DNA from: Morinoia aosen
Lineage: Eukaryota; Arthropoda; Malacostraca; Amphipoda; Talitridae
Direction: 5' to 3'
DNA: 64,000 nucleotides
Assembly: GCA_030386875.1 (NCBI GenBank)
Contig: CM059557.1
Location: forward strand, 59,598,514-59,662,513
Program-made: the position numbers and the translations under genes
Notes under the pieces: generated by a model
What the model was told of the DNA's origin: nothing
Databases searched by the model: none
What the model saw: the letters and a program-made list of their open reading frames with translations, nothing else
Shown here: piece by piece, positions 2,386 to 63,700 of the stretch
How the letters are laid out: each line of letters begins with the position of its first letter
Position numbering within the stretch: the stretch's first letter is position 1

Positions 2386-3053
2386 TTGCTTAACGTAGAA
2401 TTAGGTAGAATTGGGTAGAATTAATTATTTTAAGTTTGACATGAAGATCTTCGAGATTCCACCTTTACTATGAATCCTTTTTCTCCGCCTGAAATTTGTC
2501 TAAAGAAAGTAACTCACTTAGGAGATATTCCTTGGGTGAGCCTTTTTAAGTTGTTAAATATTTCTTGATATCCTGAATTCAATTATACAGAGTGATATAA
2601 AAAACAGGAACTTTTTAACAATCCAATAAAACCAGGAGTTATGGAAGAAAAATATTTCATTCTCTGTAATTGAAACTCTAAAACATGCGATTTCGGAAAC
2701 TGTGATGGAATTTTTTTAATTACGTCTCGTCCTCCTGTACGATTGGTTGGCGTCCTCCTGGTTGGCGTCCTCCTGTACGATTGTACTCGTATTCTTGAAA
2801 TCTGCTGTTGAGAATCCCCATTGACCGCTACCACATCTCAGCTGGGGTACTGTGAATTTTATCATGATTTCTCTGTTTTAACTCATCCAGAGTTCTCGGT
2901 CGAGTCGTGCCCTCTTTACTTTTGATTCTCGCACAGCCTCAATTCGGCTACCCTGTTAAAAGCCCTTCACACTAGAAGCCGTGAAATAATAGCGACATCG
3001 CACAACAAGTCCTGTGTTATTCCTTCCATCATATTCGTTCAATTGTATTAGCT

Positions 3054-3318
3054 GTCGTAGTTCTCAAACGCATCTTAGCTGTCAGAGTTCTCAAACGCAT
3101 CTTAGCTGTCAGAGTTCTCAAACGCATCTTAGCTGTCATTGTTCTCAAGCGCATCTTAGCTGTCATAGTTCTCAAACACATCTTAGCTGTCAGAGTTCTC
3201 AAACGTATCTTAGCTGCCAGAGTTCTCAAACGCATCTTAGCTGTCAGAGTTCTCAAACGCATCTTAGCTGTCAGAGTTCTCAAACGCATCTTAGCTGTCA
3301 GAGTTCTCAAAGGCATCA
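3054..3318. repeat. 27-bp minisatellite, about 9.8 copies
   Basis: Nine full units and one partial unit of a 27-bp repeat whose core is TTCTCAAACGCATCTTAGCT. Units differ at only a few positions, for example a variant fourth unit. Because 27 is a multiple of three, the array is open on both strands: it reads as a nine-residue repeat (SSQTHLSCQ) on plus and as a basic MRLRTLTAK repeat on minus. I see no flanking gene structure, so I read it as a satellite array rather than a gene. Confidence 0.93.
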
Positions 3319-13060: not shown

Positions 13061-15195
13061 ATCCAGGTCGCTCTACAGTACAGAACTTGCGGAACTCTTT
13101 ATTTTCCATCACATTAGAATTCACATTTGAACTAAAGAAAAGTTTTCCTAGTTGAACATCTATTTTTTTTGGCTTTTTGAGAAGTGCAATTGAACTCAAA
13201 AGTCCTTCTCCATTTTACTTGTGGTGGTGCAGTTGACATCACTGTGGTTGGTGCTGATTCAGAAGAAAAGGATAATGTAAACTGGAAACTAGTGGGCCTG
13301 AATAGTTAATACAGATGCCGAGTCTGCAGTATTATGTTACACTTGACGACACTAACAGCAAGACTGAGAGAGCCTGAAAATCAAAAATTTAACTGCTGCT
13401 TTACAAGCACACACGCAAATCATTAATTTATGCATAAAAAATTACTTATGAGTAGAATTAAGGAGACCGTTATCCGATAAAAGGAACAAAAAACAATGCA
13501 ATCTAATGATACCCAACAAAACATAATAAAATCCAATAAAACCAAAAAAAAAACCAATAAAACCCACTAAAGCCCCCCCAAAAAGCAGGAGGGCTGTTTT
13601 TTATAACTCAGGTGTTTTCCAGCCCTGTTCTCAACTCACATGATACGTCTGTTTGGTCCATTCCGGAGTCAGGAGCGTGGTAGCATGGTCAGGAGCCAAT
13701 GCTTCCTCCTCTTCAGCAACTGCTTAAGCTCTGGAATTGAAACCGTCCTCAGAATAACCTGGGAGGAAATATTTCAACAAATACTGCATGATGTAGTGGA
13801 GAATTTTCAAAGCAGACTCGAGTTTGTGATTCGGCTGAGAGAGCGACATGCGAGTATTGAATAATAGTTTCGTATTTTTCAGATGAATGTCCTGTTATAA
13901 AGTTGTTTTGAAGTTTTGAAAACAAAGTTTTGAAGAACAGAATGAATGTTTTGGTCGCTTAAGATTTCGTACACTCTCTTCTGGAATAAAGCAGAAATCT
14001 CCAAACTCAGTTGAGAGCAAACTCGTTGAGAGGGTTAAGTTCAAACTATCGCGAGTAATGATACAGAAACTGGCCTCCTACTCATGATTTTGACTAATTT
14101 CTGCAGAATTGCACTTTCCATCAACACCATTTTCTGTCCCTCCTTGAAATTTAATTACAATTTTTTCATCCCTTCCTTCCTGACGGATTCCTTGACTCAA
14201 CGCTACGCTTTGCAATAATTGGTCAGGGAAAAAAATTCTATACCCCACACTGCGACTTTATCCCAACACGGTTGGTTGCGCGTGTTTTTGAGTTCAGATG
14301 GTTGCCTGTCACAAAATCTAAATATCTCACGAGGAGCTTTTCAGATGTTTTTTTTTCTTTTTCAAAATCGCCAACTCAATCGATTTTTGCTGGAAAGATA
14401 GCTTATCAGATAACTGTTGTTATATGCGTCTAAACATTTTCCGATGTGTTCATAACAACACTGCTTGTCAGCATGCAAGTGTATGGTCAAATAACTCATA
14501 ATGTAAATTTGTCGTTAGGGTACCTTTTAAATCAAATGAAAAAAAGGCAACAGAAGAGCAGATGATATTTTTTGTGAATACTTTCCATTAGAGGTAGAGT
14601 AGTAAATACTGAGTACACAAAAACCTGCTTATTCACGCTGCACTTGTTTGCACGTTTTTCCAATTCACGTAAACTTTTTTTTACGACAGCCGATGCTATT
14701 TCACGCAAACCTTTTGCAGAGCACGCGAGCACTCACAAAATTCCCAATAATCTACGAGCCATCATTCTTAACGCAAACAATCGATAAGCCAGAACAGAGG
14801 GGAAGGATTTATAAACGTTGTGCATAATCATTGTGACACAGTCGCAAGTGGAAGCCCCTTTACCGATGTAGCTAACCCACGTCCTGTTTTTTACTGACCA
14901 AAATCCTGAAGTTTGAGTACTTAACTAAAAAAAACACATCTCAGGCGCATCACATTTGCCTGATCACGATGCAACAGAAATATTTTCGATAAGAAAACGA
15001 AGAAAATTCCATGCATATATTTGCCTATGAATATACAGTATAATAGATATAATTCGTTTCCTCAAAAAAATGTAAATGAACCATCGGAGAGTTCACGGTG
15101 ACTTAATTTCATTATAACCTGATGAATCACTAAGAAACGTCATTGAAACTAAAAAATCATGAGTAAAATATTTATCCCTGCTAAGAAACAAAATA
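13061..15195. other. Non-coding, downstream of the GH7 gene
   Basis: AT-rich sequence with a poly-C/A-rich patch near 13540-13590. No convincing coding sequence was seen. Confidence 0.4.
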
Positions 15196-16682
15196 TTATA
15201 TTGTTGATCCAATCGTTCCAATTTTAATGTCAGAGAAAGTCAGAAATGCATCTCGATTATTTACGTGATTATCTTCCGGGTTGCCAGCGTCGATTGGGCA
15301 GGGACCGCGGTAAACACCGGGGACGCTAGGATCTCCGTCAGCAGGAAATAAACTGTCCAGCCACTGCATGTAGGTAGTGGAGTCCTCCCATAAGGCAAAA
15401 ACCATCACCATTCCCTTTTGCAGCGCGGCATCCATCGCAGCTAATCCGCCTTGTTCCGCAAAATCATTGAATTCTCCAAACAAGGTTTTGTATGCTTCAC
15501 AGAACTCGTCGCTTGTAGAGTCGTAATCTTCGTCGTATCCCCAGTTAGCAACCGGGTTTGGGATCTCAACTCCGTTTTGATACCAAATTCGTCTGATTTC
15601 AACTAAGGCTCCTGTGTCAGTACCATCGTCGGTGACAAACTGAGTGACTACAGTGAACGGTAGATTGGTGTCTACGGTAAACGTTTCGTTGTACCCAAAA
15701 AACAGGCGATTATTCTGACGAGCAGGGTTGTTCTCACAGCCAGCTTTATCACATACTCCGTTGAAGGAGTCGTCGTCGTCTCCACACTCGACGTCAGTGC
15801 AGACATAATACCCATCAGTAGTGCAGCCATGAGTGGTATAGCTGCATGCCCATCTGTGAAAAGGAAATATAATGTATGAAAATAACCGCAAATAATTTTG
15901 GTAAAATAAAACTTTATCGTTATCTCTCATCAGTGCCAATTACATGTTCGTATGCTCCCATTATCAATCGTTATAAAACATTTGTACCTATTGGTTTCGA
16001 AAATGTCCATTTCAGTGCAGCAAATGCCGTAGTCACTGGTACCGTCCATGTTGACTTGCCCATTGGAGAGCTTTAGATAATGAATGCATTGGCCGTCGCA
16101 ATATCCGGTGCCATACTTCGCTCCAGCACTATTGCTGCTTGGATACCGAGCCATACCGCCATCTTCATCTATCTGGTTGAGGGTTAGAGCTCCATTCATG
16201 CCACAAGCCAAAGTTGACACATCGGCAGTTACAGATAATTCACGGTTCTTCAGGAAAAAAAGTCTATATTTGTCATCATCGCCAATGAGGAATATTCTCG
16301 GTCCAATAATGTATCCCCAATCTGTTTCTGTATAGTAATTCAATCTAAGTGTGCTGCCTGATGTGAAAATTCCAAAACCGTTATTGTACTCATCTTCTGT
16401 GATACCATCAACGGCGCAGTTCTGAGCACAAGTTACGCCGTCAGGACACAAAACTGGATCCCAGCCTTCAGATGTCTGGCAGTATACGGAACTGTCAGCT
16501 ACAGAATAAAATCGACGGTAGTCTCCATCCAACACAACGCCAGTGTTCTCGATTTGACACCCGGTTTCATCACATGACTGGATGGGCAAAGGAGGATGAA
16601 ATTCTGGGGTCAGTTGACCAGCTTGTTGACAGTTACCTATTGCTGCCAAAGTGCACACTACAGAAAATAACACGTATCTCAT
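15196..16682 (-). CDS. GH7 cellobiohydrolase-like secreted enzyme, two exons
   Basis: Exon 1 is 16682-15988 and exon 2 is 15853-15196. A 134-bp intron with donor AG|GTACAA and acceptor TTTTCACAG lies between them, and the product is 450 residues. I chose the ATG at 16682 because it opens a signal peptide (MRYVLFSVVCTLAAIGNC), after which the mature chain begins QQAGQLTPE, as in GH7 enzymes. The GH7 catalytic motif ExDxxE is present as CCTEMDIFETNR, with Glu224 as nucleophile, Asp226, and Glu229 as acid/base. Trp-Glu-Ala-Asn of the usual motif is replaced by Phe-Glu-Thr-Asn. Other landmarks are YGTGYCDGQC, CDKAGCENNP and the C-terminal FSDIKIGTIGST. Cysteines are plentiful, as in the family. 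There is no linker or CBM1, and the length fits a lone catalytic domain. Family enzymes processively release cellobiose from cellulose chain ends. The loop before the catalytic motif is shorter than in fungal enzymes. The gene is intact. Confidence 0.93.
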
Positions 16683-16730
16683 TTTGCAAGACTTAGTACA
16701 CCAATGGTAGCAGAGAGATGAACAAGGTCT

Positions 16731-16737
16731 CTTTATA
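16731..16737 (-). promoter_or_regulatory. TATA box of the GH7 gene
   Basis: TATAAAG on the minus strand lies about 50 bp upstream of the ATG at 16682. Initiation about 30 bp downstream would leave a 5' UTR of only about 20-25 bp. This placement supports the chosen start. The upstream in-frame extension of the open frame to 16919 is therefore probably not coding. Confidence 0.6.
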
Positions 16738-19140: not shown

Positions 19141-20798
19141 AAGGGTGTCCGACACTTTTGTTGCCAAACTTTAACATAAGGTAGCGATCGTCGAAATGAA
19201 CACTTTTTATTCTATTAAGGAATGGTCTAAAATGTTTAGTTAAAGAGTTACAAGGACTTGAAGTTGGACAGTTTACTGTTATTAAAAATAATTCGTACAC
19301 TCTCTTGCGGAAACGAATCCAAGGCGGTAAACTGCAGCACATCAATTAATGGCAAGGATACGAAATGAGAAGTTAGGCAGGTATGTGAAACATTCATTAT
19401 TATCAATTAACATTAACTTTTTAATGTTGTGATAAGAAAAAGCATTTTCGACAGTAATTATTATGAGCACAACACGTAAACTAGGTTACATGTTTACAAA
19501 AATTGTTCAAAATGCCGCCCATTTGTTTCGATGCAGGCGTTCAAACGCCTCTCGAGTGCTTGGCGGACGCGAGCAAAGACACCAGGAGTTTCACGAATCA
19601 TTTCCGAAGCTTCAACAATCCTACCCATCAGGTCCTCTTCGGATTGAATCGGTGTTTCATTCACTAAACGTTTCATATGCCCCCAGAAAAAGTAATCTAG
19701 GGGTGTAATATCAGGAGATCTTGGTGGCCACACGAAGGGACCACCACGGCCTATCCAGCGATTGGGATATCGGGCATCCAATAATTGCCTAACAGCAACC
19801 GCAAAGTGTGCAGGAGCACCCTCATGTTGAAAATACATTCCTCTAATGTCAGCTAAAGGTACATTTTCCAGTAGTTCTGGCAATACTTCATTAAGAAAAA
19901 TGTAATAGGTACGTCCATTTAGTCTCTCTGGTAAGATGTATATGGCCCAATCAGATGGTCGCCCAGAATTCCTGCCCAAACATTTACGGCGAATCTAACC
20001 TGATGTCGACATTGTCTTGTAACATGTGGATTGTTGCCAGACCACATGTGCAGGTTATGGAGACTAAGTATTCCTTCTCGAGTAAATGACGCTTCATCTG
20101 TGAATAAGACTCGTGATGGGAAACAAGGTTGTTGATCTGTTTTCTGTTGAAACCACCTCGCAAATTCAACACGATCGACTTTCGAAACCTCCACCGTGCA
20201 ATTCCTGCACACGCTGAAAGTGAAATGGATGTTGACCACTGTTATGTAGTACTTGCCACACAGTAGTTTTGCTTAAATGTAAAGCACGTGCACAAGAACG
20301 AGTGCTTGAAGTAGGATTGTTTCGAAAATATTCTAAGACATCTTCCACTTTGCCTGGATCTGCTACTCTCCTTTGGCGTCTTCCTTCAGGTCGTGGTCTG
20401 TGAAATGTTCCGTATTCACGTAATTTCCGGTGTATGGCTGTGAATGTTTGACGCGATGGAACATGTCTGTTAGGATGCCTTTCTGCGTAAATTCGAACAG
20501 CCTCCCTAGAATTTCCATTTGCTGCACCATACACTAGGTGCATATTCGCTAATTCAGCATTGGATACTCCCTCCATTGCTGGTGATACATTTGCAGCCGA
20601 AGAAGTACTAACGGTAAACAAACTAATCTTTGTTGTTGATGTCGAGGAGCACTCAGAATATCGGATGAAAAGTAACTTCACGTACTTATAACTTTTTAAC
20701 TAAGCATTTTAGACCATACCTTAATAGAATAAAATGTGTAAATTTCGAAGATCACTACCTTATGTTAAAGTTTGGCAACAAAAGTGTCGGACACCCTG
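19141..20798. mobile_element. DD41D Tc1/mariner-type transposon, complete, 1.66 kb
   Basis: Terminal inverted repeats of about 130 bp run inward from 19141 and 20798, starting (A/C)AGGGTGTCCGACACTTTTG, with scattered mismatches. TA lies at both outer edges (19139-19140 and 20799-20800), as expected for Tc1/mariner target duplications. The element encodes one transposase on the minus strand, which is frameshifted. Confidence 0.9.
19494..20576 (-). pseudogene. DD41D transposase, two frameshifts
   Basis: The likely start is the methionine at 20576, which opens MEGVSNAELANMHLVYGAA, an N-terminal DUF4817-type helix-turn-helix seen in arthropod transposases of this group. The catalytic domain follows: first aspartate in LFTDEASF, second position in FQHEGAPAHF, third aspartate in WPPRSPDITPLDYFFWG. 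Forty-one residues separate the second and third catalytic positions. The reading frame changes near 20170-20240 and again near 19925-19980, so no full protein is made. The second catalytic aspartate is replaced by glutamate (QHEGAPAH instead of QHDGAPAH), which should also damage activity. The protein ends ERRLNACIETNGRHFEQFL, close to the family's usual end. Confidence 0.88.
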
Positions 20799-31500: not shown

Positions 31501-32263
31501 TCACACGACTCGTTCTTGCTGCCATTTTTCACTATATCCTACACTATCGTACAGGAAAATATTCATTAGGGCTGGCAACACAGTTACAGACTCTTACTGT
31601 GTGTAGAAATTCTGCCATGTCTTCCAAAATCCTGCAAGTCTCCTTCGGAAGAACCTGAGTGCTGCTCCTGTCCTCCTGAAGCTTGGCCTTCATTTCACAG
31701 AATCCATCATTTAAAAGTTTCATTAGCGACACGACAACAAATCGAAACAACGTGAGAGCAAAAGTGAAGCTTCCCATGAGAAAAATTTGCGCTATAAGGA
31801 GCAGGAACTGAATCCATCGTGGGATTTCCTCTTCAAAGTTGTCCTGGAGAATAACAACCAGGCCAAGAATGGTTATCGCAGCAACCACCATTGAAGGCCA
31901 CTGCTGCTGGAACGCTTTCCGGACGTTTTTTGTTGACATGCAGTAGCTGTGGGCCTGAATATGAAAGTAAAAAAGCTTGGCAATATTTTTGCTGTGTGAG
32001 AAGAGGATAATCCCACTCATTACGTTTCCAGTATAATTTACCGCTAACATGCACGTGACCGCAAGGCGACCAAGCTGACTAAAATTCGAATAAGCGTCAT
32101 ATGGTAAAATTGTCCCGCAATACGAGAAGATGCCTATTGATCGAATTGCGATCCCGTACAAAAACCAAAAAGGTAAAAATTTTTGTTTTTTATTAATATC
32201 ATGGTAAAGTACACCACAAATTTTCAAAGTCCAAACTGGCAACGTTATTAAGCCAAATTTCAT
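22540..32263 (-). CDS. Gustatory receptor (7tm_7 family), four exons
   Basis: Exons on minus are 32263-31598, 26128-25928, 24019-23933 and 22611-22540. All three introns fall in phase 0, giving 341 residues. Exon 1 begins MKFGLITLPVW and encodes four hydrophobic segments at about residues 30-55, 66-92, 125-146 and 152-180. It ends at donor ACA|GTAAGA. Exon 2 (acceptor TTCAACAG, weak donor GAG|GTTGGT) holds membrane segments 5 and 6. Exon 3 (acceptor TTGTTGCAG, donor ACG|GTGAGT) carries FSIGEAYSLRRRSL. Exon 4 encodes segment 7 and the family signature near the C terminus, AWVVLLMQF, where insect receptors usually have TYLVxLLQF. This family forms ligand-gated cation channels in chemosensory neuron membranes. 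At 341 residues it is slightly short. The usual TY of the signature is AW here. No stop or frameshift was found in the exons. The small C-terminal exons are typical of the family. Exon 1 is certain; the joins are inferred. Confidence 0.82.
22612..23932 (-). other. Receptor intron 3
   Basis: 1.3 kb of AT-rich sequence between exon 3 and exon 4, with nothing else recognised. Confidence 0.6.
24020..25927 (-). other. Receptor intron 2
   Basis: 1.9 kb. Short frames at 24065-24572 on the plus strand have no recognisable content. Confidence 0.6.
26203..26397. mobile_element. Small palindromic-ended MITE in receptor intron 1
   Basis: The ends are inverted copies of about 30 bp starting TGTATGCGCAATCCCAACC. 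TCAA is found directly outside both ends (26199-26202 and 26398-26401), suggesting a 4-bp target duplication. It has no coding capacity. The element sits about 75 bp from exon 2, upstream of its acceptor. The superfamily is uncertain. Confidence 0.75.
26948..27132. mobile_element. hAT-type MITE, 185 bp, with 8-bp TSD
   Basis: The ends are inverted (CAGTGGCGCAGCCAG against CAGTAGAGCAGCCAG), flanked by a perfect 8-bp duplication AGTATATC (26940-26947 and 27133-27140). It is related in length and internal sequence to the MITE at 12075-12260. It lies in intron 1 of the receptor gene. Confidence 0.88.
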
Positions 32264-41314: not shown

Positions 41315-42757
41315 ATGATGGGAGACTCTGATTCAGAACCTGAATTTATCCGTTCTACGGATACAACTACTAGTAGCGGCAGGGTTTCTGTTCCAGCATT
41401 TAGTGGTACGTTACCTGGTACGTGCGCACATACTCCATCAAGTGTGTTTATGTCTGGACCACAGACCACGACGGTAATCACGACCACTGTTAGTACGCAG
41501 ACTGTGTCGTTCAGTACGCCAAGTGTTACTACAATGACGTCCTCTAGTGGACCGATGACGGGTGGTAGTGTAACAACAACTTTACAAAGGGGCAGTACTA
41601 TACTGTCCAGTGCAGAGCTACCTCTTTTTCGGGGCCGTCAGAGGGTCAGTGACCCGATTTTTTGTGAAACAAAGAGTTTTAGGACGCATGTCGCAAACTT
41701 AAAATCATACATGTGCTTGTTGCCCGACGTCACTTCCGATGACGCCAAAAAAGAGTTACTCGTGCGAAGCGCACACAAAAGTGTTGGCGATTTTAATGGA
41801 GTAGTCACGAAATTAGTAAACCCTGATGTTCATTATTCCTTCGATCAGGTTATCGAAATTTTAGATGATATCTACGTGTCTAAGGGGGAGCGTTCAGTTC
41901 ATGCCTTAGCGTGCGATTTAAATCAGTTACGGTTGTTACGTAATGAAGGGCTGGCAGCCCAATTGGTTATGGCAATATCGAAAATAAGAAATTTGAGTGA
42001 CCACATTCTAAATAGTACAGAAGTAGCATTACAAAGACATCCATTTGTCATTGCTAGCACGAACACAAACGAATTAAAAAAATTCTCTGGTGACTTATTA
42101 GTTTTCAGTCTTGCTATCGCCATTCTCGGTCCTCTTTTAGAAGAGAACTTTTGTAAAAAAATCTTCGCGAGGCCGTTCAATACCTCTGAAGAGTTGTTAG
42201 CTCGTCTCGTTTCCGCTGTGCGTAATAATCCTGAGGGTAGAGAAATAATTGCGCGCAAAAACAATACCCAGTCCACGTATCAAACCAGAGAGACTTACCT
42301 TGCGGTTGTACCTGAAGAGAGTGAGTGGGACGAGAAGGACTCGTTTCCCGAAGTTTACTATGCATCTCAGAACAACAACCGAAGTTTTCGAGGTCGGAGG
42401 CCATTTTTCAGAAGCAATTGGAGACCTGCTCGAATTCAAAGGGGGAGACAATATTCATATTTTGGAGATCGACCTTTAGGTTCTTTGGAGTGCCACGAGG
42501 CTCAGGTAGTTAACCCACAACAGAGTAGTAAAGATAAATCTAAATCGTTTTGTTCACTGTGCAATACCGCAGGTCATGTTCAAAGTATGTGCACGAGTAA
42601 AAGAGGCCAAAGCAAATCAAATTTCCGCGGTCATGCTTGCTACACTTGTGGCAAGACGGGCCATTTTGCACGTGAATGTCTTTCGCGTGGTCGTAGTAGA
42701 GGACGAGGTGAAGCGTACTACGCTGCATCTTGCGAGGGTGAAGATTTTTTAGAGTAG
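41315..42757 (+). CDS. gag: Gypsy Gag polyprotein (480 aa)
   Basis: A structural protein that packages the element's RNA. It starts at the ATG at 41315. The ATG three bases earlier in the run ATGATGG is out of frame or not used by the open frame. A Ser/Thr-rich N-terminal 100 residues precedes a helical capsid-like region (about 105-310). A basic, arginine-rich stretch follows (RGRRPFFRSNWRPARIQRGR). Two CX2CX4HX4C zinc knuckles, FCSLCNTAGHVQSMC and CYTCGKTGHFAREC, lie near residues 409 and 440. The frame ends at TAG 42755-42757, four bases after a slippery heptamer. No break was found. Confidence 0.9.
   Translation: MMGDSDSEPEFIRSTDTTTSSGRVSVPAFSGTLPGTCAHTPSSVFMSGPQTTTVITTTVSTQTVSFSTPSVTTMTSSSGPMTGGSVTTTLQRGSTILSSAELPLFRGRQRVSDPIFCETKSFRTHVANLKSYMCLLPDVTSDDAKKELLVRSAHKSVGDFNGVVTKLVNPDVHYSFDQVIEILDDIYVSKGERSVHALACDLNQLRLLRNEGLAAQLVMAISKIRNLSDHILNSTEVALQRHPFVIASTNTNELKKFSGDLLVFSLAIAILGPLLEENFCKKIFARPFNTSEELLARLVSAVRNNPEGREIIARKNNTQSTYQTRETYLAVVPEESEWDEKDSFPEVYYASQNNNRSFRGRRPFFRSNWRPARIQRGRQYSYFGDRPLGSLECHEAQVVNPQQSSKDKSKSFCSLCNTAGHVQSMCTSKRGQSKSNFRGHACYTCGKTGHFARECLSRGRSRGRGEAYYAASCEGEDFLE
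42745..42751 (+). promoter_or_regulatory. -1 ribosomal frameshift site at the gag end
   Basis: TTTTTTA sits in the gag frame as T TTT TTA, a canonical X_XXY_YYZ slippery heptamer, directly before GAG TAG. Slipping back one base continues into the pol frame, which is open across this point through to the protease. This explains why pol has no ATG of its own near its start. A downstream stimulatory RNA structure was not established. Confidence 0.8.
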
Positions 42758-44559
42758 ACGGAGCAAGATCGGAAAATTTAAAGTGTCTTGGACTAGAGAA
42801 GGAGTTGCCAGTGCCCGGGGTTGCAGCTACTATCCCCGTCACCAAAAATGTGGTGTTGAAACCAGATACTATTATAAAGTCGACTGCTGTGGTGGATCCG
42901 CTTTTCCTGTGTAAAAATAAATTCGAATTACTAGGTGAACAAGAACTTGATGTAGGTGCAAATTCTGAACTACCTGTAGAAGTTTGTTTGTCAGCGACGA
43001 TAATGAAAGAAGGTCGTTTAAGGAAAGAAAGCGATGGTTTATTTTCATTACGGCGTTCTAAGAAGCCTACAATTATATTACGTAATGATAACAAATTGAT
43101 GAGCGCTCTAATCGACAGCGGTAGCGACAGATGTTTAGTGAGTTACCGGAATTTAAAAGGTATAAACGAGCGAATTAAGCCTAGTGCTTTGAGTATCCGG
43201 GGCGTAAATTCCAAAAGCCAGGTATCAGGAGAACTCGATCTTTGTATCACGCTGCCTAATAGTAAGGAAATCAATACCAGCGCTTTGATTTTGAAAGATG
43301 GCGAATTTAAATATGATGTAATCCTCGGTAGGGATATTCTACAAGATGCGGTGATTAATTTCAAAGAAGGATTCATTGTTCTCGACGGCGTAAAAGTACC
43401 GTTTCATGATGTGCAGGAATTGCACGAGCAAAGTAGGAAGGAGATATTTTTGAATACCGTAAGTAATCCAGAATGTCTAATGGCTGACATGCTTGCGAAT
43501 AGGAGGAAAATAAGAAAATATCTGCTGAAGCAGAGAGAATCAAAAATTGCGAGCCAGGAAAGTGGCGATAAAAATGGTCTAGAGATAAATACTGCAGAAG
43601 AGAGGGGTACCCCAGGCCCAACGGCAGGGCGAGAAAATAATGGGAAAGTAAAAAATAAACAGCATGCGAAGAAAATAAGTGAAACTAAGGAACATGCGAG
43701 AGGTTTAAAATATAGTAAAAAACGAGAAATAGTTGTTCATTGTGGAGCAGTGGAAATGCCCAGAAATTGTTTACGTGTTATTAATGGGTATGTCAAAAAG
43801 GCTAAGCCCGGAAGGTATATTATGAATAAGACAATTCTCGCGAATGGTATTTATGTCGCCGAATCAGTTGTGGATATCAAGTCAAATGGGTTTGTCCCTG
43901 TAATGCTTTTGAACGTCTCGGAGGACGTGGTATATATGAGCGACAATACGATGTTAAGTACGATTGAAGAAATTGACGACATGGAAATTGAACACGAGAT
44001 TTACATGTCTACCGTGCACGAAGCTGTGCGAGATGCAAATTTGTGCGATGCCCAAGATAATGCGGATCTACCCGAAGTCGACAGTGTTAATGGTGGAAGT
44101 TTCAATGCCATCTCTGGTAAAGACGTTGGGTTAGTATCTGTAGAAACGAGGCATTGTGGTAACGATAATCGTGTTGATGAAGTGGGAATTAATGCACACA
44201 AAGATGTTGTACCAGAAGGAGGTAGTAACGAGAGACGTCCTCTGACGTGTGACGATGTAAATTGTGAAAATGATGATGCTAAACCATTACTGATGAATTT
44301 ATTAAACAATTTTAGAGACGTAATTACTCTCGAAGGCGAAAATATTGCAGTCACGAATGTCATGCGACATGCTATTGAATTAAAACCTGATGCTCCAGTA
44401 CTTAACATCCCTCCATATCGAATTCCACATAAGTATCAAAACGAATTGTTGCAAGCCAATAAACAAATGTTGAATCAAGGAATAATTGAACCATCGAGCT
44501 CTGAATACAATTTTCCTTTAATTGTTGTTAAAAAAAGTCGGGCGAGATACGTCCCGTGA
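42752..44559 (+). CDS. pol: Gypsy pol, first part: protease and start of RT
   Basis: Expressed by -1 frameshifting from gag. The frame runs openly from the gag overlap to TGA at 44557-44559. An aspartic protease active site, ALIDSGSD, lies about 100 residues in (near 43114), followed by a retropepsin-like VILGRDIL. A long lysine-rich and acidic linker of about 300 residues separates it from the start of reverse transcriptase (IPPYRIP, then SSSEYNFPLIVVKK) at about 44400-44530. After the run of seven A at 44530-44536 the frame is wrong, and it stops within ten codons. RT continues one frame back. The long linker between protease and RT is unusual. Confidence 0.88.
44530..44536 (+). other. A7 run with frame break inside RT
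   Basis: The upstream pol frame reads AAA AAA AGT here. The conserved RT sequence continues only in the -1 frame. In the upstream frame the preceding base is T, so this is not a full X_XXY_YYZ heptamer. A one-base loss from the A run, or an assembly error, is more likely than programmed shifting. Confidence 0.7.
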
Positions 44560-47075
44560 TTGATTTCCGCGAACTCAATAAAATAATTATCAAGGAATGT
44601 TATCCCATTCCACGCATCGACGAAGTACTTTACTCTCTAGGTGGTAATAGCATTTTTTCAAGTCTCGACCTCCGCTCTGCCTTTCATCAGGTCGAGTTGG
44701 AAGAAAAATGCCGTAAATTCACCGCGTTCAGTATGGGTTACGAGAAATTTCAGTTCAAGAGGTTGCCATTCGGGTTATCCTCGAGTCCATCAGTGTTCCA
44801 AAGAATCATTTCTTCTGTTCTTACAAATATCATCGGTAAATTATGTTTTGTGTTCCTTGATGATATACTAGTATTTTCCAAATCCATGAACCAACATCTG
44901 AAAGATTTACAGAGTGTTTTTGAGAAGCTACGTGGTGGAAATTTATCACTTAAACTTGAAAAATGCCATTTCCTAAAAAGCTCAATTGAATATCTTGGAC
45001 ACATCGTATCGGCAGACGGAATTCGATGCAAAGAATCAGAGAAGCTTCAAAAATTTCCGATTCCAAAAAATGTGAAGGAATTGCAAAGTTTTTTAGGTGT
45101 AGCAAACTACTTTAGGTCGCATATCCCAATGTTTGGTTCAATTTCATATCCACTTTATCAGTTATTACGAAAAAACGTTGAATTTATCTGGACGCCTGAA
45201 TGTCAGAAAGCTTTTGAGAAAATTAAATCTGTTTTGACATCAGATACCGTTTTACGGCATCCTGATTTCAGTAAGCCCTTCCATGTATTTACTGATGCAT
45301 CTAATTTTGGTATCGGTGCGGTACTTTTGCAACACGATAATGACTCAAATAAATCTATGAAGGCTGTTGCTTACTACAGTAAAAGTCTCAACTCAACACA
45401 AAAGCGCTATTCAACGACGAAAAAAGAGTTCTTCGCCATTGTAAGCGCGCTGAAAGCTTTTAAATATCTCATTCTTGGATATCCGATCTATCTCTACACT
45501 GATCACAAACCGTTACAGCCCTTGTTTTTCAAAAAGCTTCCTGACGATTCGGCTATGTCTCGATGGTGTCTAACAGTTCAATCCTTCGAACCCGTAGTAA
45601 AATATTTCCCCGGGAAACAGAATCTAATTGCAGATTGCCTAAGTAGATTACCCCAGCATTTAACTATTTCTGATCTTGAAGAATGCTCAGAGTTCGATGA
45701 GGTTGACGCCTTCGCAGTAACTACACGCCGTGGTGCACTGACCGCCGACGTAGACGATACAGACGCGACGCCGTCTAATCTAGTGGCGCCAGAGGCGACT
45801 GAAAAACCCCGACTGACTGACTACGTACCTCAGTTAAAAGACGTATCATGGACTTTAGACGAATTTCGAGATGAGCAACAACTAGACCCATTCTGTTCTG
45901 AGGTTAAGGACGCATTACTATCTAGTAGACAATCTACGATCCCTGACTTACAAAAATACTTAATTCTGAACGACATACTTTATAGACGACGACAAATAGA
46001 CTCAAGGGAAAGTACTATTCTCACTTCGGTTACACCGACATCGCTAATGAGCAAGGCGGTGCTCAGTATACATTCCTTATATCATACTGATGCCACGCAT
46101 ACGTTGTTTAAATTTAAGTTGCGTTATTTTCATTTATTAGAGAAGAGTATCATACGTAAATTTGTCAAAATGTGTGATGTATGTAAAATTCTTAAAGCCA
46201 GCAGTACTGTACCTATTAAAATTTTAGACGCTCCCATCGCTAAAGAACCGTTCGAGGTGGTATCAATGGACTTTCTTGGTCCTCTACCTGTCCCAGATCA
46301 GCAGAATAAATATATTCTAATTTTAATTGATTTATTTTCGCGTTACTGTAAGCTTTACGCGACAGCAGATCGATTAGCAGATACAGTTGTCTCTTGTCTG
46401 GACAGCTGCTTCTCAACCTTTGGCTATCCTAAAACACTTCTAAGTGACCAAGCTCTTGAATTTAAGTCTGCGGCAGTTAAAAAATTCTCTCAAATTCATT
46501 GTATTGCGAAAAAAGAGGTCCTCCCTTGGAGTCCTCACAGTAACGCTATTGTTGAACGTAATAATCGCAAAATTACGAATTTATTAAAATTATATATTAA
46601 CTCTTTAGCGCATACTGAATGGGATCAGTGTCTCAACAGCACAGAGAACGCGATAAACAATAGTTTAAATACAACATTGGGGGATACACCCTCGTTCATT
46701 GTTTTCAATCGCGATACGTGTCCGAGCTTTAGCGCCGTAACTTTCGAACCTAATTACAGTCACGACACAAACGTGGATATAATAAGGTTTCGAGCTCAGG
46801 AAGCTGCCCGCATTGTTGAAAACGTTAGAGCTACAATAATAAATAAAACCAGTGAAAGAACCATGTATCACAACCTTCGACGCAAAAATAAAAATTTTGA
46901 ACTCAATGACCGTGTATTGTTGCGCAATCACATGCGGAAAAACAAACTAGATCTTGCCTGGAATGGGCCGGGTATTATCACAAAAATTAACCGAAATTAC
47001 GTAGAAATCAAAATTGGCAATAAAACATTCAGGAGTAATAAAAATCATGTACTACCTTTACGTAAAAAGTGTTGA
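44556..47075 (+). CDS. pol: Gypsy pol, second part: RT, RNase H, integrase
   Basis: The start coordinate is only where an alternative codon opens the frame. The true protein enters from upstream. RT: VIDFRELNK, then SLDLRSAFHQ (first Asp, residue 38), and the catalytic FLDD at residues 100-103, where Tyr-X-Asp-Asp is usual. RNase H: FTDASNFGIGAVL near 245, KKEFFAIVSAL and YTDHKPL. Integrase: an H/C zinc region near 510-545, with MCDVC clear; catalytic Asp in SMDFLGPLP (about 571), Asp in LSDQALEF (about 630) and Glu in NAIVERNN (about 666). Thirty-five residues lie between the last two, a proper DDX35E core. It replicates and integrates the element. No stop occurs before TGA at 47075. Confidence 0.92.
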   Translation: MIDFRELNKIIIKECYPIPRIDEVLYSLGGNSIFSSLDLRSAFHQVELEEKCRKFTAFSMGYEKFQFKRLPFGLSSSPSVFQRIISSVLTNIIGKLCFVFLDDILVFSKSMNQHLKDLQSVFEKLRGGNLSLKLEKCHFLKSSIEYLGHIVSADGIRCKESEKLQKFPIPKNVKELQSFLGVANYFRSHIPMFGSISYPLYQLLRKNVEFIWTPECQKAFEKIKSVLTSDTVLRHPDFSKPFHVFTDASNFGIGAVLLQHDNDSNKSMKAVAYYSKSLNSTQKRYSTTKKEFFAIVSALKAFKYLILGYPIYLYTDHKPLQPLFFKKLPDDSAMSRWCLTVQSFEPVVKYFPGKQNLIADCLSRLPQHLTISDLEECSEFDEVDAFAVTTRRGALTADVDDTDATPSNLVAPEATEKPRLTDYVPQLKDVSWTLDEFRDEQQLDPFCSEVKDALLSSRQSTIPDLQKYLILNDILYRRRQIDSRESTILTSVTPTSLMSKAVLSIHSLYHTDATHTLFKFKLRYFHLLEKSIIRKFVKMCDVCKILKASSTVPIKILDAPIAKEPFEVVSMDFLGPLPVPDQQNKYILILIDLFSRYCKLYATADRLADTVVSCLDSCFSTFGYPKTLLSDQALEFKSAAVKKFSQIHCIAKKEVLPWSPHSNAIVERNNRKITNLLKLYINSLAHTEWDQCLNSTENAINNSLNTTLGDTPSFIVFNRDTCPSFSAVTFEPNYSHDTNVDIIRFRAQEAARIVENVRATIINKTSERTMYHNLRRKNKNFELNDRVLLRNHMRKNKLDLAWNGPGIITKINRNYVEIKIGNKTFRSNKNHVLPLRKKC

Positions 47076-61729: not shown

Positions 61730-62779
61730 CCCAGGTAGCAAAATTTATTGACCTAATATTGAGCCAATATACAGTCTCAATATTGACTGGATATTCAAAA
61801 TAAACATTGGGGCAATACCTTATTTTGGAAAATTTGGTTGATATTAGAAAAATATATTGGCCCAATAACAATATTATCATCAACCCAATATCAACTAAAT
61901 ATTGTGTCAATATTGACTTGAAAATGAAGTGTTCCCTTCAATAACGTTGGCTTAATACTCAATTCCTGATAGGTTAATATTTGTAAAACAAATGGCCCCG
62001 AAAATGATAATTTCACCAACCCAATGCTAAGTTTTATGTCTCTATAGACTTCATATAGAGGTGTTCCTTAGAAAAACCTTGGCATGTAAGGCCTGGAGGT
62101 ATTGCTGCTCTAGCAACCAAGTCTCAATTGCGGCGAGAGAAGCAACGGCTTTAGTTACAAACTCGTTCTTCTCCTGAATTTTCTAATGAGCAACCATTAT
62201 TTATACTTTTCCACTTTCCTCATTGAAAATTTTACATTTACACGTATTAGTATTACTGAATACAAATGGACTAGAACTGAGTTTGAGGGGCAACTAAGGT
62301 AGGGCACTACAGGCCCAATACTTATTTTCTGACATCAAGTGGATATTGGTAGAATATATTGTCCCAATAAAAATTCATTTTTAACCCAGTATCAGCTAAT
62401 TACTGTGTCACTATTGACTTGATATTGAGGTGTTTCCTTGAGCAAATTACTCCGTATTATTGGCGTACAATATCAACCCAATATTTGGGCAATAGTAATT
62501 TATATTTTAACAAATTTTATTAAATTGCGAGGTTTTTAATTATTATGAGATAGTTTCCACTTATATGAATATCGTACATATATATATACACTGTTAGTTC
62601 AATATTAGAAATGAAACTATTTACTACATTGTCCCAATAACAAGTTGAAATCATAAATAAATATATATTTTTTCGATATTGTCTTGTTATTAGCCTGATA
62701 TTGTAATCCAAGATTCCAATATCAGGTCAATAAAAAATTATCAACCCAATATTGGCCTAATAATTTCTTGCTACCTGGG
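61730..62779. mobile_element. TIR element inserted in the Copia copy, 1.05 kb
   Basis: The ends are CCCAGGTAGCAA (61730-61741) and its inverse TTGCTACCTGGG (62768-62779). They interrupt Copia pol between integrase and RT. The interior is AT-rich and full of CAATATTGGGTTGATAT-like words in both orientations. It has no transposase. A 5-bp target duplication (CAACC/CAGCC on minus, one mismatch) is possible but not clear. Superfamily unknown. Confidence 0.75.
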
Positions 62780-63700
62780 TTGTCTAGACTCCACTCCCTC
62801 CATCCCAGCCTCTGACTGTTCATGCTCCGCCTCTTCCTCAGAGTCTTCTGGTTCTGGTTCTTGAGGAAGAAGAGTAGAAGTACCATCATTTACTTCTGAA
62901 GGCTCCTTCTCAATTGGCATCTGCTGAGATTCATTGAACATAACGTCTCTACTTAAAAATATCCTTTTGCTGCTTATGTCATACAGACGATATCCTTTGG
63001 ATCCACCTCCATATCCTACAAGAACACACGGTTTAGATTTTGGATCAAGTTTTTCCCTCTCATCTTTGGGGACATGAGCGTACGCACTGCAGCCAAAAGT
63101 TCTGAGGTGCTGTACATTGGGCTTGTGTCCATTAAGGGCTTGATAAGGAGTCATATCATTCAATGCACTAGCACGGCTCCTATTTTTGACATACACGGCA
63201 GTTGATATAGCTTCACCCCAGAATAATTTTGGTAACTTTGAACCAGACAGCATAGCTCTGACAGAGTCAAGGAGAGTTCTATTCATTCTTTCTGCAACTC
63301 CATTTTGTTCAGGTGTCTTAGGCGCAGTTTTTTCATGGATAATTCCTTCCCTTTTTAGGAATTGTTCAAAGTCATTAGAGATGTATTCCCCACCGTTATC
63401 GGAGCGCAGAATTTTAATTTTGTGATCATAGTGATTTTCTACCAGAGATTTGAACTCCTGAAACACTTTAAAAACATCACTCTTGTGTTTGATAATGTAC
63501 ACCCAAGCATATCTGGAGTGGTCATCTATGAAGGTTACAAAATACCTTCCACTCCCAAGTGATATGGGATTAAGCTTGCCACACACATCACTGTGAATTA
63601 GTTCTAAGGGCCGGCGTTCCCTTTTGTGATTTGTTTTGGGGAACGGAAGCCTATGATTTTTACCATCACAACAGTTTTCACAAAAAAATGTCATCTCCAC
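62771..63700 (-). pseudogene. pol: Copia integrase region
   Basis: On minus: CENCCDGKNHRLPF completes the zinc region. The catalytic core follows, with Asp in IHSDVCGKL, Asp in LRSDNGGEY and Glu in PEQNGVAERMNRT. Thirty-five residues lie between the last two. The conserved tail LRTFGCSAYAHVP, FVGY-like LVGYGGGSKGYRLYD and an acidic linker follow. Within this part the frame is intact. It inserts element cDNA in active copies. Upstream, it is joined by a frameshift near 63690 to the pre-integrase domain. Downstream, it is cut by the TIR insertion. Confidence 0.9.

Follow-up and report, generated by a model that had tools for sequence, protein, structure and literature searches.

A GH7 gene without loop B2 in a crustacean genome with 21 GH7 loci: a predicted open-cleft beta-1,4-glucanase

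Many fungi rely chiefly on GH7 enzymes to degrade cellulose, and it is an open engineering question how the loops of these enzymes control processivity. A stretch of 64,000 nucleotides (hereafter, the window), located at 59.6 Mb of contig C2 in an assembly of 1.99 Gb and 29 contigs, carries a GH7 gene that a first-pass annotation had named a cellobiohydrolase, with the suspicion that changes in the catalytic motif and in the loop before it alter the substrate tunnel. Because the host is a crustacean and GH7 is already known in crustaceans, the presence of such a gene is unsurprising; the question is which kind of GH7 enzyme it encodes. We predict from the sequence, with a probability of roughly 60%, that the gene encodes a functional, secreted digestive GH7 hydrolase, an open-cleft and weakly processive beta-1,4-glucanase. 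The features of the locus are as follows.

15196-16682, minus strand: intact GH7 gene with two exons, 450 aa plus stop
15988-16682, minus strand: exon 1, with the ATG at 16682 (splice model and PF00840 match)
16682-16629, minus strand: signal peptide, a hydrophobic leader judged by eye; the mature protein starts QQAG
15854-15987, minus strand: phase-2 GT-AG intron of 134 nt, GTACAA...TTCACAG (splice model)
15196-15853, minus strand: exon 2, ending at the TAA stop (splice model)
15996-16013, minus strand: catalytic motif E224-M-D226-I-F228-E229, corresponding to E212, D214, W216 and E217 of T. reesei Cel7A
16037-16038, minus strand: point of the missing loop B2, between residues 215 and 216, with 11 residues fewer than in T. 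reesei Cel7A (alignment with 10 PDB GH7 sequences)
16732-16737, minus strand: TATA box TATAAA, at -55 from the start codon (motif check upstream of GH7 copies)

The window protein matches PF00840 (Glyco_hydro_7) with an E value of 5.1e-144 and 480.7 bits (cut-off 27), from residue 22 to 449 of 450 and from position 2 to 434 of the 435 in the profile, which excludes a chance resemblance to GH7. No other Pfam family was found in the protein at E 0.01, and a phmmer search against PDB returned 40 distinct sequences, the best with E 5.7e-115. Read unspliced, the frame meets a stop inside the intron, the 3' end of which is rich in pyrimidines. Thus, several elements of the first-pass annotation are borne out: the intact GH7 gene with one spliceosomal intron, the complete ExDxxE motif (E224, D226 and E229), and the replacement of the fungal Trp and Ala by Phe and Thr (Phe228 and Thr230 for Trp216 and Ala218 of T. 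reesei Cel7A). The leader, MRYVLFSVVCTLAAIGNC, is followed by QQAG, with the mature start set by alignment to PDB GH7 chains beginning at Q1; the best-matching of these chains start with the same glutamine. For both the window protein and LqCel7B, a GH7 cellobiohydrolase of the crustacean Limnoria quadripunctata (PDB 4gwa), the pI was returned as 4.05, very acidic, a value that may be the floor of the program used, as we take 4.05 to be its lower limit. The close TATA box, also pointed out earlier, has counterparts elsewhere in the family: TATA[AT]A occurs within 160 nt upstream in 6 of the 13 GH7 copies checked, the window's included, and always at -50 to -57, so that this spacing recurs in 5 further copies; it is absent from the same 160 nt in the remaining 7.

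A search of the genome with PF00840 gave 46 matches, mainly half-genes split at the intron, and spliced models were then built. We identified 21 GH7 loci in three subfamilies, A, B and C: 17 are clustered on contig C24 (59.498-59.784 Mb), two lie at 75.62 and 81.85 Mb of the same contig, one at 47.80 Mb of C23, and the window gene on C2. An additional short GH7 fragment adjoins L014. The models run from ATG to stop at 16 of the 21 loci, the first exon is unsettled in L013 and L016, and three loci (L015, L027 and L028) are broken, with L015 split over several frames. L027, on C24, and L028, on C23, encode nearly identical proteins and carry the same insertion of about 3 kb, flanked by the 8-bp repeat GTCTCGAG; the copying between chromosomes evidently took place after the break. 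The insertion has hAT-like ends, and the 8-bp repeat is its target-site repeat.

Subfamily A comprises the window gene, L009-L012 and, as the sister of the other A copies, L026 (support 96/93, 90/92 and 83/86 in three trees), and subfamily B comprises L013, L014, L016 and L017. Subfamily C consists of 8 genes of canonical form, namely L025 and seven that give only two different proteins (L018 and L022 as stand-ins); the three aligned C copies are 64-72% identical to LqCel7B, with 690 bits for L018. In all 20 spliced models, those of the window gene and of every other locus except L015, the main intron interrupts the same codon in phase 2, which favours the interpretation of A, B and C as paralogues. 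Subfamily B has an extra intron, of phase 0 and nearer the 5' end of the gene, as read in L014 and L017.

That this is a real nuclear animal gene, as the first-pass annotation had it, is upheld by the 20 further GH7 loci, the common phase-2 intron and the position on the crustacean side of the best trees. A transposon of the DUF4817/DDE type with two ORFs (19494-20681, minus strand) sits 2.8 kb upstream of the gene and is repeated genome-wide: 40 of its 1968 candidates were scored, and all 40, on many contigs, are 90-100% identical. The proximity of such a dispersed element implies that the gene is nuclear and animal, and the at least 39 further copies of the element, 90-96% identical, point to a fairly recent burst. 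Contamination or a chimeric contig is ruled out by the 20 further loci on two other contigs, the shared intron and the genome-wide transposon nearby. One scan each of viral and of genome contigs, a weak search with a five-protein alignment and two short patterns per scan, gave no microbial or viral relatives.

The shortened loop before the catalytic motif, correctly noticed in the first-pass annotation, is loop B2, with 5 residues compared with 16 in T. reesei Cel7A; the roof that this loop forms over subsite -4 in GH7 cellobiohydrolases is missing from the window protein. We aligned 10 A/B proteins, three C copies and 10 PDB sequences, namely those of five fungal cellobiohydrolases (CBHs), three fungal endoglucanases (EGs), Limnoria and Daphnia. 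Loop B2 has 5 residues in all 10 A/B proteins, 14-16 in the 10 sequences that bear it (the three C copies, Limnoria, Daphnia and the five fungal CBHs) and 2 in the three fungal EGs. According to the available excerpt of PMC4157447, B2 is an insertion of 13-15 residues that CBHs have and EGs lack, so that the suspicion of an altered tunnel was well placed.

Both entrance tryptophans of the window protein are also replaced, W38 (subsite -4) by Tyr and W40 (-7) by Arg, and W367 (-2) and W376 (+1) are retained, leaving incomplete the four-Trp platform of a processive CBH. Across the family, W38 is lost in all 10 A/B proteins and W40 in all six of subfamily A, L026 included, with W40 kept in B; W367 and W376 are present in all 10, and subfamily A retains the catalytic Glu, Asp and Glu. 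Further changes in the window gene relative to T. reesei Cel7A are Y51Q, Y145T, W216F, A218T, R251S, D259A and Y371T. Position 145 varies in subfamily B as well; L018, of subfamily C, retains all of the residues changed in the window gene, W38 and W40 included. Tyr145 and Arg251 presumably lie close to the nucleophile and to the product site, and we take R251 and D259 to be subsite residues at +1/+2. R394 is present, and of the 20 cysteine positions of T. reesei Cel7A, 18 are occupied by cysteine, with only 4 and 72 missing, as in L018; the cysteines of nine of the ten disulfides of that fungal enzyme are thereby retained. Because the window gene lacks two features of a processive CBH, the B2 loop and the tryptophans of subsites -4 and -7, the name cellobiohydrolase is doubtful and we do not retain it; the CBH-like genes of this genome are those of subfamily C.

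However, the window gene is not a typical endoglucanase either, as B2 is the only one missing of the four loops (B2, B3, B4 and A4) that are all absent or short in GH7 endoglucanases. Over spans of our own choice, B3, B4 and A4 have 13, 12 and 13 residues compared with 15, 11 and 13 in T. reesei Cel7A, and because these loops, absent or shortened in the three aligned fungal EGs, remain, the cleft is probably only partly opened. At 18 diagnostic sites, defined as columns fixed differently in the five fungal CBHs and the three fungal EGs (two of which are close relatives), the window gene has the CBH state at 5, the EG state at 2 and some other state at 11, and the three scored C copies are CBH-like at 16-18. 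A simple fungal-type endoglucanase label is ruled out by the EG-like state at only 2 of the 18 sites. By these residues, subfamilies A and B lie between or beside the fungal CBH and EG types.

Comparison with individual known enzymes gives a similarly mixed picture. LqCel7B shares the family, the catalytic triad and the acidity with the window protein, to which it is 46% identical, but keeps B2, W38 and W40. The protein of PDB 4xnn, which we take to be Daphnia pulex GH7, shares its side of the best trees with the window protein, to which it is 44% identical, but differs in having a canonical B2 and canonical Trp platforms. The fungal endoglucanase T. reesei Cel7B (EG I; PDB 1eg1) resembles the window gene in the lack of B2, the Tyr at position 38 and a non-Trp residue beside the acid/base Glu. 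In EG I, however, B3, B4 and A4 are missing as well and W40 is present, whereas the window gene has these loops and has lost W40. T. reesei Cel7A (CBH I; PDB 1cel), 42% identical, has in common with the window gene the triad, W367, W376, R394 and most loops, but its B2, W38, W40, Y145 and R251 are gone in the latter.

We propose that loss of the B2 lid over subsite -4, together with the platforms at -4 and -7, would replace the roofed tunnel with an open cleft, in which beta-1,4-glucan chains could be cut internally by double-displacement (retaining) hydrolysis. Such a cleft would be expected to favour internal attack and quick release and to work best on amorphous or soluble glucan, with substrate preference the least certain step. 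The subfamily C copies would perform the processive work, and the window enzyme might be one half of an in-house endo/exo pair that complements GH9, another expanded, multi-copy cellulase family with 52 exon matches on contig C6, in clusters at 4.12, 25.03, 28.19-28.23, 31.48-31.62 and 62.96 Mb. No match to the LPMO model PF03067, the control for which was positive in 1 of 14 genomes (Lactococcus) and which AA15 may escape, was found in the genome. In T. reesei Cel7A, according to the sections available of the review PMC10394125, deletions in B2 made the enzyme less active on crystalline and more active on amorphous cellulose, and altering the -7 position at the tunnel entrance reduced its activity on a crystalline substrate.

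The residues of the window gene also bear on its substrate. With 5 CBH-like, 2 EG-like and 11 other sites, the gene is not simply EG-like and the substrate could differ. Thus, A and B might act on a different beta-glucan (mixed-linkage, xyloglucan, xylan or algal glucan) or on soluble oligosaccharides, as would also fit the replaced subsite residues at -7, -4 and +1/+2 and the diet of talitrids studied elsewhere, which eat brown macroalgae and paper (PMC9803094, in the portion available). However, the window gene retains the Trp residues of subsites -2 and +1 and a catalytic centre as typically found in enzymes that cleave beta-1,4-glucan, and we consider such a switch unlikely, although it fares best among the alternatives.

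Next in plausibility, and also unlikely, is a still processive cellobiohydrolase with an altered tunnel, in which B3, A1, B4 and A4 roof the path and other aromatic residues stand in for the lost tryptophans. The near-CBH length of B3, B4 and A4 and the presence of W367, W376 and R394 are compatible with this, and fungal GH7 CBHs reportedly show 40-80% endo-initiation, which makes the border between CBH and EG soft (PMC5766984, as far as the excerpt goes). Furthermore, point mutations in B2 and at Trp38 of T. reesei Cel7A raised the activity on crystalline cellulose (PMC10394125, same sections), so that milder changes of this kind alone do not seem to end CBH action. In the window gene, however, B2 and both entrance tryptophans are lost together, and the canonical CBH role is already held by the 8 C copies, the three scored ones of which keep nearly all the CBH-diagnostic residues.

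The origin of the loop-less subfamilies was addressed with trees of 13 of the 20 spliced copies (L018, L022, L025 and all unbroken A and B) and the 10 PDB sequences, without oomycete or protist GH7 rows. A and B form one clade with 100/100 support in all three trees, including that with the loop columns dropped, and C is the sister of LqCel7B (98/95 with all columns; 94/94 and 85/84 in the two further trees). If the tree is rooted on the fungi, this grouping of C with Limnoria implies, at that support, that the split between A+B and C predates that between isopods and amphipods. Support for the split between crustacean and fungal sides is 82/98 (all columns), 90/99 (loop columns dropped) and 99/98 (the long-branched fungal EGs also left out). 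The best trees of crustacean and fungal members give the gene the animal affinity expected for it, but the data are also compatible with a tree joining A+B to the three fungal EGs (p-AU 0.25 for all columns and 0.10 with loop columns dropped). This tree, and the EMDILE motif that four A copies (L009-L012) share with T. reesei EG I, would suit a separate acquisition of A and B from an endoglucanase-type GH7, with a fungal Cel7B-like donor, in place of descent by loop loss from a crustacean CBH. Such an acquisition is improbable, given that the best trees join A+B with C, Limnoria and Daphnia, that A, B and C share the phase-2 intron at the same codon, and that EG-diagnostic residues are few.

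As for history, we tentatively suggest that in a crustacean lineage a GH7 CBH gave rise by duplication to a third kind of GH7, which lost B2 and the chain-entry tryptophans and kept the other loops. A division of labour like that of Cel7A and Cel7B might then have been rebuilt convergently at the same loop, with changes at the product and substrate sites that occur in neither fungal type.

The nearest paralogue of the window gene is L010 (80% amino acid identity), with a dN of 0.125, a dS of 1.26 and a dN/dS of 0.10 (Nei-Gojobori), which at this synonymous divergence indicates that selection keeps the window protein; most other paralogue pairs are at or near synonymous-site saturation. DNA similarity between the window and the 4 kb around L010 is limited to 15184-16685, the gene and a few flanking bases, and this, with the dS of 1.26, suggests that the two genes parted long ago. 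The window gene has the longer branch (0.156, compared with 0.085 for L010) and 23 derived residues by parsimony, compared with 17. The idea that it is an intact-looking duplicate on its way out, with reduced or no activity, is very improbable: the longer branch, the changes at Tyr145, Trp216 and Arg251 and the three members already broken lean that way, but the open frame, the good splice sites, the TATA spacing seen in 5 other copies and the low dN/dS argue against it.

As far as the passages available go, publications on crustacean GH7 count 318 genes across 126 crustacean data sets (PMC6011409) and 3 in the genome of Parhyale (PMC5111886), and record homologues of LqCel7B from amphipods, the talitrid Trinorchestia among them (PMC9803094). 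These passages make no mention of loop-less forms or of a tandem cluster, both of which are present in this genome. In Limnoria gut fluid, GH7 and GH9 account for over half of the soluble GHs, as stated in an excerpt of PMC6277391, and by our own reading the GH7A primers printed there translate to the B2-loop-like PNAGTGD and to IWEANSM, so that GH7A appears canonical, like GH7B (LqCel7B). We found no report of an animal or crustacean GH7 without B2 in the literature on GH7 and cellulases, a search that covered the openly accessible portions of papers. What is new here are the 21 GH7 loci in three subfamilies and the coexistence of a loop-less subfamily with canonical copies in one genome. Paralogues with and without B2 and the entrance tryptophans in a single animal offer a ready comparison of the role of each element. 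Furthermore, a diversified cellulase kit of the animal's own, with GH7 in three subfamilies and multi-copy GH9, would suggest less reliance on gut microbes for the digestion of cellulose.

The mitochondrial copy on contig C29 has the gene order ND2-ND3-COX1-COX2-ATP6-COX3-ND5-ND4-ND4L-CYTB-ND6-ND1, with COX1 identified by Pfam and the others read by eye from the translations. Between ND2 and ND3, an interval of 69 nt folds with what was read by eye as the anticodon TAA of tRNA-Leu(UUR); ARAGORN found no tRNA in the mitochondrial stretches, this interval included. Talitrid amphipods have trnL2 between nad2 and nad3 (PMC7687600), nad3 and nad6 are translocated in Platorchestia (PMC7799624), and the rearrangement of CYTB and ND6 is known from other amphipods too (PMC13061750, in the part available). 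The gene order points most likely to a talitrid amphipod or a close relative. What is probably the mitochondrial control region, ahead of ND2 (L034:2591-6726), consists of a long series of nearly identical repeats spaced about 161 or 209 bp from each other. Several mitochondrial-type COX1 copies lie on contigs C26, C28 and C29. On contig C27 (55-72 Mb), several COX1 matches lie in long open frames without TGA codons and are bacteria-like; bacterial sequence appears to have been joined into this contig, which concerns the assembly and not the window.

Additional elements were observed in the window itself. An ORF of 239 aa (31544-32263, minus strand) with several hydrophobic stretches looks, by eye, like an arthropod chemoreceptor and has six relatives at 22-29% identity on C2 and C11. 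It gave no credible Pfam match (best E 0.061), and a 7tm_6 search of the genome returned 0 matches, a weak result, as the controls gave none either. The ORF had suggested an insect host, a reading set aside chiefly in view of the talitrid-like order of the mitochondrial genes. At 62771-63700 (minus strand), we identified an integrase with an SH3-like domain, presumably of the kind typical of copia-type elements. An LTR retrotransposon with three ORFs, of the Gypsy type by reading, occupies 41315-47075 (plus strand) and encodes a zinc knuckle, an aspartyl protease, a reverse transcriptase, an RNase H and an integrase. Finally, a tandem array at 3048-3317 consists of ten copies of a 27-bp unit with 93% matches.
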